NCBI GenBank assembly: GCA_007124095.1
Contig: SLFU01000014.1
Location: forward strand, 1-34,833
From: Gemmatimonadota bacterium
GTDB taxonomy: Bacteria; Gemmatimonadota; Gemmatimonadetes; Longimicrobiales; Gaopeijiaceae
Reading direction: 5' to 3'
DNA: 34,833 bases
The position numbers and the translations under genes are program-made. Under the pieces are notes generated by a model that was given only the letters and a program-made list of their open reading frames with translations, made no database searches and was not told the DNA's origin. Positions 9,245-33,042 of the stretch are shown one piece after another; position 1 is the stretch's first letter; every line of letters starts with the position of its first letter.

Positions 9245-10234
9245 TCATCGGCCACGCAGGATCTCCTCGACGATTCGCCTCCCGTGCAGACGCCCGGTTT
9301 CGATGAATATTCGATTCGCGTCCAACCCCGCTGCCAGGACCCCGGCCAGAAACACCCGAGGAACCGGAGTCTCCATCGTCTCGGGATTGTGGGCCGGCAC
9401 CCCCGTCTCCTCGTCCACGGGAATCCCCATCGAGCGGAGCAGCTTGGGCTCAGGTCGCCATCCGGTCAGTGCGAGCACCCAATCGTTCGGAACCTCTTCC
9501 ATCGCCCCCCCGCTCTCATTTCGAAGGAGGATCGAGCCGGGCCGGATCTGGGTGACGCGGGTCCGCCATCGGACCTCCACCTCACCCTTCGCGATCCGGT
9601 TCCGGATATCGGGGAGAAGCCACGGCTTCACCCCGGGGTCGAAATCCGATCCGAAGTGGACGAGCGTCACTCGAGCCCCCGTCCGAAAGAGCTCCAGAGT
9701 GGACTCCACCGCCGAGTTTCCCCCTCCTACGACTACGACATCCTGCCTCCAGTAGGGGTGAGCCTCGCGGTAGTAGTGAGAGACCTTCGGAAGGTCCTCC
9801 CCCGGCACGCCGAGAGGGTTCGGCTCGTGAAATCCCCCGGTGGCCACAACGACCGCCTCTGCCCTCCAGGCCTCCTCGGCCCCGGCGTGGGTGCGGGTGC
9901 GAAGGACGAAGGCTTCGCCCTCCCGCTCCACCGACAGCGCCTCCTGGTATTGGCGAACATCGAGCTCAAAATACCTGGCCACTCCCCGATAATAGGCCAG
10001 CGCCTCCTTCCGGGTGGGATTCGTGTCGGAGGTCACGAAGGGCACCCCCTCGACTTCCAGGTTCTCGGGAGTGGAGAAGAAGGACATGTAGGGAGGGTAA
10101 TCCACGAGCGAGGCACAGAGCGGCCCCCGATCGAAAAGCGCCGAATGGATGCCCGACCGCCGGGCCGCCGCCCCCACCGCCAGACCACAGGGTCCCGCTC
10201 CGATGACCGCGAGCTCCACCGACTTACCCACCAT
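9245..10234 (-). CDS. ypdA: YpdA-family FAD/NAD(P)-dependent disulfide reductase
   Basis: A 329-residue two-dinucleotide-binding flavoprotein. The FAD Rossmann motif GAGPCG is at residues 12-17 and the second nucleotide-binding motif is VVVVGGGNSAVESTLELF. The early motif SLVDYPPYMSFFSTPENLE and the C-terminal PRVFLAGVLAAGLDANRIFIETGR are typical of YpdA, proposed to reduce bacillithiol disulfide. No CXXC redox pair is visible, consistent with YpdA and unlike thioredoxin reductase. If correctly assigned, the organism may use bacillithiol as its low-molecular-weight thiol. It is transcribed alone, divergent from the LuxE/LuxC cassette. Confidence 0.88.
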   Translation of the reverse strand: MVGKSVELAVIGAGPCGLAVGAAARRSGIHSALFDRGPLCASLVDYPPYMSFFSTPENLEVEGVPFVTSDTNPTRKEALAYYRGVARYFELDVRQYQEALSVEREGEAFVLRTRTHAGAEEAWRAEAVVVATGGFHEPNPLGVPGEDLPKVSHYYREAHPYWRQDVVVVGGGNSAVESTLELFRTGARVTLVHFGSDFDPGVKPWLLPDIRNRIAKGEVEVRWRTRVTQIRPGSILLRNESGGAMEEVPNDWVLALTGWRPEPKLLRSMGIPVDEETGVPAHNPETMETPVPRVFLAGVLAAGLDANRIFIETGRLHGRRIVEEILRGR

Positions 10235-10440
10235 GACCGCATCCTTCCGGAAGAAGACCCACTCCAGGCCGCACGTACATGCGGCTCACCCCGGATCCCG
10301 GCACCGGTTCCCCCCTTCCCGACTCCCCCCATGGCACTCGCCATTGCTCCGAGGGGCCCTATCCATCACCCTTGAATCATGGCCGTCACGGTGGGGAGAT
10401 GTCGGCGATTCTCCCCTGCATCCCAACCCCAGGAGGCTCC

Positions 10441-22097: not shown

Positions 22098-23408
22098 ATG
22101 CACGAGATTCACGTTCCCTCCGACATCCAGGCTCGATACCTGCCCCGAGCCAAGGGCCTTACAGCCCTCTTCGCGGGGCTCGTCGCGGTCGGCACGCTCG
22201 CCTTTGTGGTCCTTTTGGCCACCAACGCCGACCGGGCCTGGCAGGCCTACGTCTCCAACTGGCTCTTCTTCACGAGCGTGGCCCAGGGAGGGATCATCTT
22301 CGCGGCCGTCACGCTCATCGTGAAAGCCAGGTGGAACTGGTCGGTACGGCGCCTCTCCCTGGCCGCCGGAGGATTCCTGCCGATCTCGTTCCTCCTCCTC
22401 CTTCCCATGCTGACCCTCCGCGAGAACTACTTCACGTGGATGCGGTACATGGAGTTCGACCCGATCGTGCAGTTGAAGGCGGCGTACCTCAACATCCCGT
22501 TCCTCATCACACGAAACTTCCTCGGAGCGATCATACTCTTCGGGTTGAGCCTCTTCTTCATCTATCTTGCCCTTCGGCCCGACCTCGGCCCGGAACGGGA
22601 ACGGGATGAAAACGACGACATGGGCCGGCGGCGCTGGCGCGAGCGGCTTACCCAAGGCTGGAGGGGACAGGAGGCGGAGGAGTCCCGGAGCTGGGAAGCG
22701 CTGAAGGTGCTCGCCCCCGCCCTGGTCCTGGTCTACGCGCTCATCATGGGGATCTTTTCGGTGGACTGGGCCATGAGCCTCGAGCCCCATTGGTTCTCCA
22801 CGCTCTTGCCCGCGTGGTTCTCGATGGGCGCCTTCTGGGCGGGGATCGGGTTCACCGCTCTGCTCGCGATCATTCTCAAGCGCGGCTACGCCTACTTCGA
22901 CGAGCAGATGGGTCCCCAGCAGCTCCACGATATGGGAAAACTCTTCTTCGGCTTCTCCATTTTCTGGATGTACCTGTTTTGGTCGCAGTACATCGTGATC
23001 TGGTACGGAAAGCTCCCCTGGGAGCAGGAGTGGATCATCCACCGCTCCGGGGCCGAATGGGGACCGATCTCCCTCCTCGTGATCGTCCTCTGCTTCTTCG
23101 TCCCCTTCGCTGGCCTGATTGGACGCAAGCCCAAGCTGATACCGAATTGGTTCGGTGGGGTGGTTCTTCTGGCACTCCTCGGGCTCTGGCTCGAACGGTT
23201 TATCCTGATCGCACCGTCCCTGCACGAGCCCGGCACGGCCACGATCACCTTGTGGGAACCCCTGATCGCTTTGGGATTCCTCGGCCTGTTCGCCGGGAGC
23301 ACTCGGTGGTTCCTCACCACCTTCCCGGTGATTCAGCTATGGCAGTTCCGCGACGAGCCGGAAATGCTCGAGTCGGAAACCCCGCCCGAGCACCAGGTGG
23401 TAGCCTGA
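22098..23408 (+). CDS. actF: Alternative complex III subunit ActF, second NrfD-like membrane protein
   Basis: A 436-residue membrane protein with about ten transmembrane helices, the second quinol-oxidoreductase-type subunit of the complex. WLFFTSVAQGGIIFAAVTLI, MGIFSVDWAMSLEPHWFS and KLFFGFSIFWMYLFWSQYIVIWYG are characteristic stretches. It begins three bases after the actE stop, with only a weak ribosome-binding site, so it is probably translated by coupling. In many genomes cytochrome oxidase genes follow; here a convergent gene on the other strand ends the operon. Confidence 0.94.
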   Translation: MHEIHVPSDIQARYLPRAKGLTALFAGLVAVGTLAFVVLLATNADRAWQAYVSNWLFFTSVAQGGIIFAAVTLIVKARWNWSVRRLSLAAGGFLPISFLLLLPMLTLRENYFTWMRYMEFDPIVQLKAAYLNIPFLITRNFLGAIILFGLSLFFIYLALRPDLGPERERDENDDMGRRRWRERLTQGWRGQEAEESRSWEALKVLAPALVLVYALIMGIFSVDWAMSLEPHWFSTLLPAWFSMGAFWAGIGFTALLAIILKRGYAYFDEQMGPQQLHDMGKLFFGFSIFWMYLFWSQYIVIWYGKLPWEQEWIIHRSGAEWGPISLLVIVLCFFVPFAGLIGRKPKLIPNWFGGVVLLALLGLWLERFILIAPSLHEPGTATITLWEPLIALGFLGLFAGSTRWFLTTFPVIQLWQFRDEPEMLESETPPEHQVVA

Positions 23409-23443: not shown

Positions 23444-23492
23444 GAGAGGCGGGCTCGAATTACTGAGCCCGCCTCTCGCTCAGTAATTCGAG
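23444..23492. terminator. Two overlapping long inverted repeats between actF and the IMPase gene
   Basis: Arms GAGAGGCGGGCTC (23444-23456) and GAGCCCGCCTCTC (23465-23477) form a perfect 13-base stem with an eight-base loop. Overlapping it, CTCGAATTACTGAGC (23454-23468) and GCTCAGTAATTCGAG (23478-23492) form a perfect 15-base stem. The order is A-B-A'-B', so the two stems compete. The site lies between convergent genes and includes the stop codon and last ten codons of the minus-strand gene. A bidirectional terminator is the simplest role, though no T-run follows. Confidence 0.6.
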
Positions 23493-24290
23493 CACCTGTG
23501 CGTGCAGGCGGCCATTCGTCGAGATCCCCGAGCCCCCATGGATGGTCGAGCGCCCGTCCAGATCCGTGAACCTTCCTCCCGCCTCCTCCAGGATCGGGAG
23601 GAAGGGTGCGGCATCCCAGGGTGAAAGGACCGGATCTACCATCACCTCGGCACGACCGGTGGCAACGAGGAGGTGGCCGTATGCATCGCCCCAACCCCTC
23701 ACGAACCCCGCCCGGTCCGCGAGCGACCTCCACCCCGGCCCCACCGAAGAGACCAGAATCCCCTCCGGATCCGTGGTGAGCGCGACGGACCGGGAGAGCG
23801 CAGGCTCGTCGGAGACGGCCGCCGAAACCGGGTTGCCTCCGGCCTTCCTCCACCACCGGCACCCCAGTCCCCGGCCCGCCGCAATGGTCTCCCCCAGAGC
23901 CGGGAAATGGGCGACCCCCAGGACGGGCTCTCCGCCCATCTCCACCCCGATCAGCACCGCGTACAATGGGACCCCGTGCAGGAAGGAACGGGTGCCGTCG
24001 ATCGGATCCAGGATCCATCGGATCGGCTCGGTACCCGCCTCCTCACCATACTCCTCACCCAGAATCGCGTGATTCGGAAAGCGTCCCTGGATGGCTTCCC
24101 GGAGCACGGCTTCGGCCTCCCGGTCGGCCCGAGTGACCGGGCTTCCGTCTCCCTTCGCGTCGGCCGACAGGACGCTCCCGAAGTAGCTGAGAGTGACCCT
24201 CCCGGCTTCGCGTGCGAATTCGGTTGCGTGATCGAGGAGGGGAGCCAAGCTCCCGGGATCTCCCGGATGAAAGTGTTCGTCCGATCTCAC
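23460..24290 (-). CDS. Inositol-monophosphatase-family phosphatase (HisN-like)
   Basis: A 276-residue Mg-dependent phosphatase. The metal-site motifs are GEEYGEE, WILDPIDGTRSFLHG and, near the C-terminus, SPWDAAPFLPILEEAGG. The DPIDGTRSFLHGVPLYAVLIG context resembles histidinol-phosphatase HisN more than CysQ, but substrate remains open. I chose the GTG at 24290 because GGGAG sits just upstream and the product then has the normal family length; an ATG at 24323 would add eleven residues. Its last codons lie in the overlapping inverted repeats at 23454-23492. It follows trmJ after a 174-base gap. Confidence 0.88.
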   Translation of the reverse strand: MRSDEHFHPGDPGSLAPLLDHATEFAREAGRVTLSYFGSVLSADAKGDGSPVTRADREAEAVLREAIQGRFPNHAILGEEYGEEAGTEPIRWILDPIDGTRSFLHGVPLYAVLIGVEMGGEPVLGVAHFPALGETIAAGRGLGCRWWRKAGGNPVSAAVSDEPALSRSVALTTDPEGILVSSVGPGWRSLADRAGFVRGWGDAYGHLLVATGRAEVMVDPVLSPWDAAPFLPILEEAGGRFTDLDGRSTIHGGSGISTNGRLHAQVLELLSERRAQ

Positions 24291-24464
24291 AGCTCTCCCT
24301 TTCCCTGAATGCGCCCACGGCATGTCGTCGTCAACGGCCAGGAGCCGATCCTCGGCCGACTCGATCCCCGGGTGTGGTAAGATCACCGAGCTCACCTGGA
24401 TCCCGGGAGAAACGATTTGGGGAAGATATGGCACGCCGGTCCACCGCAACAACCGCGCAATCCA

Positions 24465-33005: not shown

Positions 33006-33042
33006 ACAAGGGGGGTCACTCGATTCGGGTGACCCCCCTTGT
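33006..33042 (+). terminator. Long terminator hairpin after the TolQ-like gene
   Basis: A perfect 14-base stem: ACAAGGGGGGTCAC (33006-33019) pairs with GTGACCCCCCTTGT (33029-33042) across a nine-base loop. The bases after it are TCGCACC, so the U-tract is only the TTGT at the stem foot. It lies 41 bases after the stop codon and 70 before polA. Confidence 0.8.

Follow-up and report, generated by a model that had tools for sequence, protein, structure and literature searches.

Template switching is known to make perfect RNA stems and to invert their loops (Monttinen and Loytynoja, PMC8794818), and spacer inversion is described for yeast genes (PMC8604942). In Escherichia coli, the nascent strand switches templates at quasipalindromes (PMC7202029), and in yeast, fold-back at microhomology yields short inverted insertions, most of them under 14 bp (PMC11724301). 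For large rearrangements, a series of successive switches has been described (PMC7954356). All five reports are cited here for what their consulted sections contain. Here, we describe a 50-base sequence at the junction of two convergent genes that is probably the scar of a template-switch (fold-back) mutation at the 3′ end of a phosphatase gene, and that looks like a mutation footprint rather than a genetic switch.

A crossing pair of perfect inverted repeats

The window (the whole stretch of DNA analyzed, 34,833 nucleotides) is one contig of a 2.83-Mb assembly comprising 242 contigs. The last gene of an alternative complex III (act) operon, an ActF-like gene taken from the open reading frame list, occupies 22098–23408 of the plus strand, with its stop codon at 23406–23408. 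The name is presumed from operon position, and the protein itself has no Pfam match; Pfam matches in the operon identify ActD (PF11821), NrfD (PF03916), a cytochrome c and a molybdopterin/Fe-S protein. Converging on it from the minus strand is a gene of the inositol-monophosphatase family (23460–24452; Pfam PF00459, 155.7 bits) with a TAA stop at 23462–23460, and neither gene is followed directly downstream by another in the same direction. The called TTG start of the phosphatase gene is probably placed too far upstream, since most of the best matches in relatives start at residues 50–70. Elsewhere in the window, a perfect 14-bp stem enclosing a 9-base loop (18-nucleotide arms, 94%) lies at a gene boundary at 33006–33042, without a T-tract.

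Two fully complementary stems are present at the junction. Stem 1 comprises 13 bp (23444–23456 with 23465–23477) and encloses an 8-base loop, and stem 2 comprises 16 bp (23453–23468 with 23478–23493) and encloses a 9-base loop. They cross in the order A-B-A′-B′, as a preliminary description of this DNA had reported. Of the stem lengths given there, 13 bp was reproduced, whereas the second stem proved to be 16 rather than 15 bp long, which moves the end of the unit from 23492 to 23493. The shared inner arms noted at that time are also present, the overlap amounting to 4 bases (GCTC at 23453–23456 and GAGC at 23465–23468), and the stems cannot both form in full, again as described.

Read on the phosphatase coding strand from 23493 to 23444, the unit is GCTCGAATTACTGAGC GAGAGGCGG GCTCAGTAATTCGAGC CCGCCTCTC, that is, X(16)-Y(9)-X′(16)-Y′(9), where X′ and Y′ are the exact reverse complements of X and Y and the 50 bases are contiguous, with zero spare bases between the parts. 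On this minus strand, X (23478–23493) supplies the last base of a Val codon followed by LELLS, and Y (23469–23477) encodes ERR, residues 326–328. X′ (23453–23468), the partner of X in stem 2, encodes A and Q, then the TAA stop, and continues as noncoding sequence; Y′ (23444–23452) contributes to stem 1 together with the shared GCTC/GAGC. Since X starts with GCTC and finishes with GAGC, 4 bases are common to both stems at each inner end. Stem 1 starts after 35 intervening bases beyond the ActF stop, and the phosphatase stop (23460–23462, minus strand) sits in its 8-base loop. Thus, the unit does contain the last codons and stop of the phosphatase gene and does lie at a convergent junction, as first described, but only part of it is intergenic, since phosphatase sense codons make up 31 of the 50 bases (23463–23493).

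The frequency of such arrangements was assessed by scanning for crossing pairs with both stems at least 8 bp in 488 kb of this genome (G000, window included), 229 kb of its congener (G001) and 400 kb of another member of the family (G005), with 20 dinucleotide-preserving shuffles per genome as controls. Seven pairs were found in G000, and in the six besides the window's the shorter stem was 8 bp; the best pair in each of the 20 shuffles of G000 had a shorter stem of 8–10 bp. Stem lengths approaching 13 and 16 bp were seen in no other crossing pair of the three genomes, and after shuffling the shorter stem of the best pair never exceeded 10 bp. Non-contiguous crossing pairs occurred at numbers near those of the shuffled sequences in G000 (7 versus 5.7) and G001 (2 versus 3.05) and above them in G005 (20 versus 14.0).

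The contiguous form X-Y-X′-Y′ was scored as |X|+|Y|. The window's unit scores 25; no unit scored above 13 when 1.12 Mb was shuffled 15 times, or above 15 when another 0.80 Mb was shuffled 12 times. Totals of 9, 10, 11, 12 and 13 were reached by contiguous units about as often in the real as in the shuffled sequences, with 28, 10, 5, 1 and 1 in the 1.12 Mb (shuffled means of 26.8, 13.4, 3.87, 1.07 and 0.33) and 18, 10, 2, 2 and 1 in the further 0.80 Mb (15.92, 6.58, 2.33, 1.17 and 0.08). The preliminary description had suggested looking for similar units elsewhere; in the 1.92 Mb sampled from five family genomes, the window's unit alone has both parts longer than 7 bases. Two further real units exceeded every 1.12-Mb shuffle, one at 2808 of L133 (G001:C3; 4+14, total 18) and one at 669 of L172 (G005; 10+4, total 14). 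These are 14- and 10-bp hairpins with a 4-base loop complementary to the bases adjoining the stem, and they were not counted as the same thing; in each, one part is only 4 bases long.

A chance origin of the unit is rejected by the shuffles. Membership of a class of repeated intergenic elements is likewise rejected, given that a DNA search and a pattern search placed the unit at one position in the genome. Two more perfect inverted repeats, 13 and 14 bp long, were seen in G000 at 10430–10460 of L089 and 6694–6735 of L093, inside called genes or at the edge of a stretch; they are possible further template-switch scars.

Probable ancestral sequence and proposed fold-back copying

To establish which half of the unit is old, 47 orthologue sequences of the phosphatase were aligned at their C-termini. 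Two of these (L066 and L098), alike over the last 120 residues, were collapsed to give 46 distinct sequences, 45 of which reached a stop (L014 reached none); three that are cut or misaligned (L026, L105 and L112, ending at residues 186, 310 and 313) were kept in the denominator of 45. Orthologues end at window residues 326, 327 and 328 in 12, 11 and 9 cases, respectively, so that 32 of the 45 end on the three codons of Y. A further three end at residue 329 and seven at residue 330, which is also the last residue of the window's gene; with 10 of 45 ending at 329–330, the length of the window's tail is in itself not unusual. XY encodes the C-terminus of the phosphatase (...LELLSERR), which is homologous at the protein level to the orthologue ends (for example, VLELLAP, VLTLLRER and ALELLSDR), and X′ begins after residue 328. 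Given that XY matches the ordinary gene ends of orthologues, X and Y look ancestral and would be the donors, and X′ and Y′ look derived.

Codon usage was counted over 265 kb using crude gene calls based on codon usage. TTA accounts for 29 of 7,970 leucine codons and TAA, the rarest stop, for 14 of 191 stops. The co-occurrence of a rare codon and the rarest stop fits a stop codon copied from the gene's own TTA.

A scheme in which the scar was probably made by two fold-backs can be written as follows. The phosphatase coding strand, with its 3′ end at X-Y-GCTC, would fold back such that GCTC (23465–23468, minus strand), the putative first primer, pairs with the GAGC ending X across a 9-base loop, and 12 bases of X would then be copied to complete X′. 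The new 3′ end, GAGC (23453–23456, minus strand), would act as the second primer by pairing with the GCTC that begins X′ across an 8-base loop; 9 bases of Y would be copied into Y′, after which synthesis would rejoin the normal template. The presence of GCTC after Y before the event is an assumption of the model. The two steps would supply a TAA stop two residues past Y, derived by inverted copying from the TTA leucine codon of the gene itself, and would leave a 13-bp GC-rich hairpin between the two convergent genes.

When this scheme was run as a script, a 29-base progenitor (X, Y and GCTC) gave all 50 bases through two 4-base-primed fold-backs, fixing 21 bases. The same GAGC/GCTC complementarity serves both switch points, and the complementary ends of X that the model demands are found in X. 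Along the coding strand, the start of the second copied helix falls inside the first copy (positions 57–61 of the stretch), with an overlap of 4 bases; on the opposite strand, the two helices merely abut at 54, without a shared primer. Because the overlap is confined to the coding strand, we infer that copying ran along that strand and that the second primer was made by the first step. This direction is consistent with what the orthologue proteins indicate about the older copy. It is suggested, tentatively and at somewhat less than even chance, that a single replication or repair event, in which two successive self-primed fold-backs used the same 4-base complementarity, built the unit, turned TTA into a TAA stop and created the hairpin. 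Alternatively, the two inversions could be separate events.

Junctions in relatives, folding and rival explanations

The junction was compared with 23 distinct junctions besides the window's, obtained from 112 loci as places where both genes were found together. The preliminary description had proposed such a comparison and had taken the perfect identity of both stems as a sign of recent origin or selection. That statement stands, and the present data do not separate the two. Gene order at the junction is common to the window's contig and its relatives, but neither the junction sequence nor the stem of the window is conserved among the 23 others. At 7 of the 23, a perfect stem of at least 11 bp is present whose sequence is unrelated to that of the window, which implies that hairpins come and go at this spot. 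At genus level, the comparison consists of two genomes, this one and its congener, which are 77% identical over the region. In the congener, a 7-base gap separates the two stops, the 3′ flank is of another length and sequence, and a search within 60 bases of the two stops gave no perfect stem of at least 8 bp (loop up to 25).

Folding energies were calculated for the unit as RNA and as single-stranded DNA. As RNA, stem 1 has an energy of −30.0 kcal/mol (−35.4 with a small neighboring hairpin), and stem 2 has −27.3 kcal/mol on the plus strand and −28.0 kcal/mol on the minus strand; on both strands, the minimum-energy fold contains stem 1. When prefixes of the act RNA were folded, stem 1 appeared first and persisted in every longer prefix, whereas prefixes of the phosphatase RNA showed stem 2 at 54–60 bases, after which stem 1 replaced it. 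In DNA single strands, the stems have nearly the same energy (−17.0 to −18.1). Because no unpaired bases connect the arms, a full pseudoknot is implausible on steric grounds.

With respect to termination, a GC-rich hairpin as in intrinsic terminators does follow the ActF stop, but it overlaps the phosphatase stop. No T-tract lies beside stem 1 on either strand (3 T in 10 bases on the plus strand and 2 in 10 on the minus strand). Ten other stems of at least 12 bp with loops of up to 20 were found in the 488 kb; four (two in L076, one in L078 and one in L129) are flanked by 6–7 T on one or both sides, and six are not. A search of the whole window against Rfam at gathering thresholds gave zero matches, and the unit is not among the three sites reported by a promoter/terminator scan. 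In the first 265 kb, using the same crude gene calls, 1 of 24 convergent junctions of up to 400 bp carries a perfect stem of at least 10 bp, namely that of the window. Rho is encoded in the genome; two Rho-like genes were seen, at G000:C6:11734–12972 (693.9 bits, above the family cut-off) and at G000:C28:17623–18720 (480.2 bits, below it). A separate observation concerns L076 (G000:C1), in which two strong hairpins (9447–9486 and 9684–9721) lie ∼200 bases apart in a convergent gap of 1,224 bases, each bearing a T-rich tail on either side. By their look, they are bidirectional terminators; this gap fell outside the 400-bp limit of the convergent-junction census.

These data bear on two functional readings of the hairpin. 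The preliminary description had offered a switchable terminator of the act operon, or more generally a terminator or attenuator with stems 1 and 2 as alternative states, as one of two explanations. Mutually exclusive stems, the transient appearance of stem 2 in phosphatase RNA prefixes and the near-equal DNA stems count in favor of a switch, but the RNA states are dissimilar (stem 1 with its small hairpin at −35.4 against −27.3 and −28.0 kcal/mol for stem 2), stem 1 dominates the folds of both strands and is the first to form and persist on the act RNA, and the junction offers a switch no directly downstream same-direction gene, T-tract, Rfam match or conservation. The genes converge, and a switch is accordingly considered very improbable. 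On the folding and termination data above, we consider stem 1 to be a passive 3′-end hairpin at most. That it acts as a passive bidirectional 3′-end element for both convergent genes, be it a terminator lacking a T-tract, a Rho pause site or an exonuclease barrier, is a doubtful but not negligible proposition, and one compatible with an origin as a scar. A stem of −30 kcal/mol placed 35 bases beyond the ActF stop, the strong hairpins at 7 of 23 other junctions and the encoded Rho speak for such an element. Against it stand the missing T-tract on either strand, where 4 of the 10 other stems have 6–7 T, the single stem-bearing junction among the 24 of the census and the lack of conservation of sequence and stem among relatives. 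Any regulatory role of the hairpin is inferred to be small or absent.

The remaining rivals concern how the sequence arose. Given that strong hairpins are frequent at relatives' junctions, stem 1 may predate the copying of X and have been kept by selection, a point that counts against the scar. In the corresponding explanation, stem 1 was present between the genes beforehand, and an inverted X was inserted into its loop by a single subsequent template switch, perhaps after a tandem duplication of X-Y. Loop or spacer inversion by template switching is documented in the consulted sections of PMC8794818 and PMC8604942, and perfect stems of at least 11 bp at 7 of 23 other junctions make a pre-existing hairpin conceivable. 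However, Y is coding sequence at the usual end of the gene, so that an inverted copy of Y would be needed as well, and the prior tandem duplication would be an extra step that has left no trace; this route is therefore regarded as unlikely. An artefact of library preparation or assembly in this metagenome bin is more unlikely by far. Fold-back chimeras can arise in libraries, the assembly is in 242 contigs and has the unit at a single location, but the unit lies inside a contig whose gene order is shared with relatives, and a reading frame ends within it. By contrast, the template-switch scar, the other explanation first offered, is the better supported of the two, on account of the contiguous inverted copies, the 4-base complementarity and a coding donor shared with orthologues; the one congener without such stems lends it further backing.

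Relation to described systems

Titles and abstract openings retrieved by full-text literature searching contain no description of an A-B-A′-B′ unit made by two fold-backs, and absence from print is not claimed. If the proposed origin is correct, the junction would preserve a clean natural trace of successive fold-back copying in a bacterium, in which the direction, the primer and the order of the steps can be read from the crossed order of the repeats and the 4-base ends that they share. One mutation could then be enough to produce both a stop codon and a strong 3′ hairpin, and template switching could be a de novo source of gene ends and 3′ hairpins. The contiguous X-Y-X′-Y′ arrangement with complementary ends of X also provides a searchable signature for counting such events in genomes.

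With intrinsic (Rho-independent) terminators, the unit shares a GC-rich hairpin at gene 3′ ends, but it differs in having no T-tract on either side and in using the coding sequence of one gene for its stem. Closer likenesses are found among template-switch mutations. In the consulted text of PMC8794818, an adjacent reverse-complement copy produces a perfect stem in one mutation and loops are invertible, as here; unlike in that text, two donors have each been inverted with their order kept, so that the repeats cross. The quasipalindromes of PMC7202029, as presented in the sections consulted, likewise involve a nascent strand that templates itself through a hairpin, but there an existing imperfect palindrome is perfected, whereas here new inverted copies seemingly start from 4-base complementarity. 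The insertions at yeast breaks, as set out in the consulted part of PMC11724301, are similarly short, inverted and primed by fold-back at inverted microhomology; they arise in a eukaryote during break repair from one fold-back with a 41-base loop, in contrast to the two fold-backs proposed for this bacterium, with loops of 9 and 8 bases. The kind of event is thus already known; what seems unusual is that the copying is double, with the order kept, and that it affects the end of a gene.
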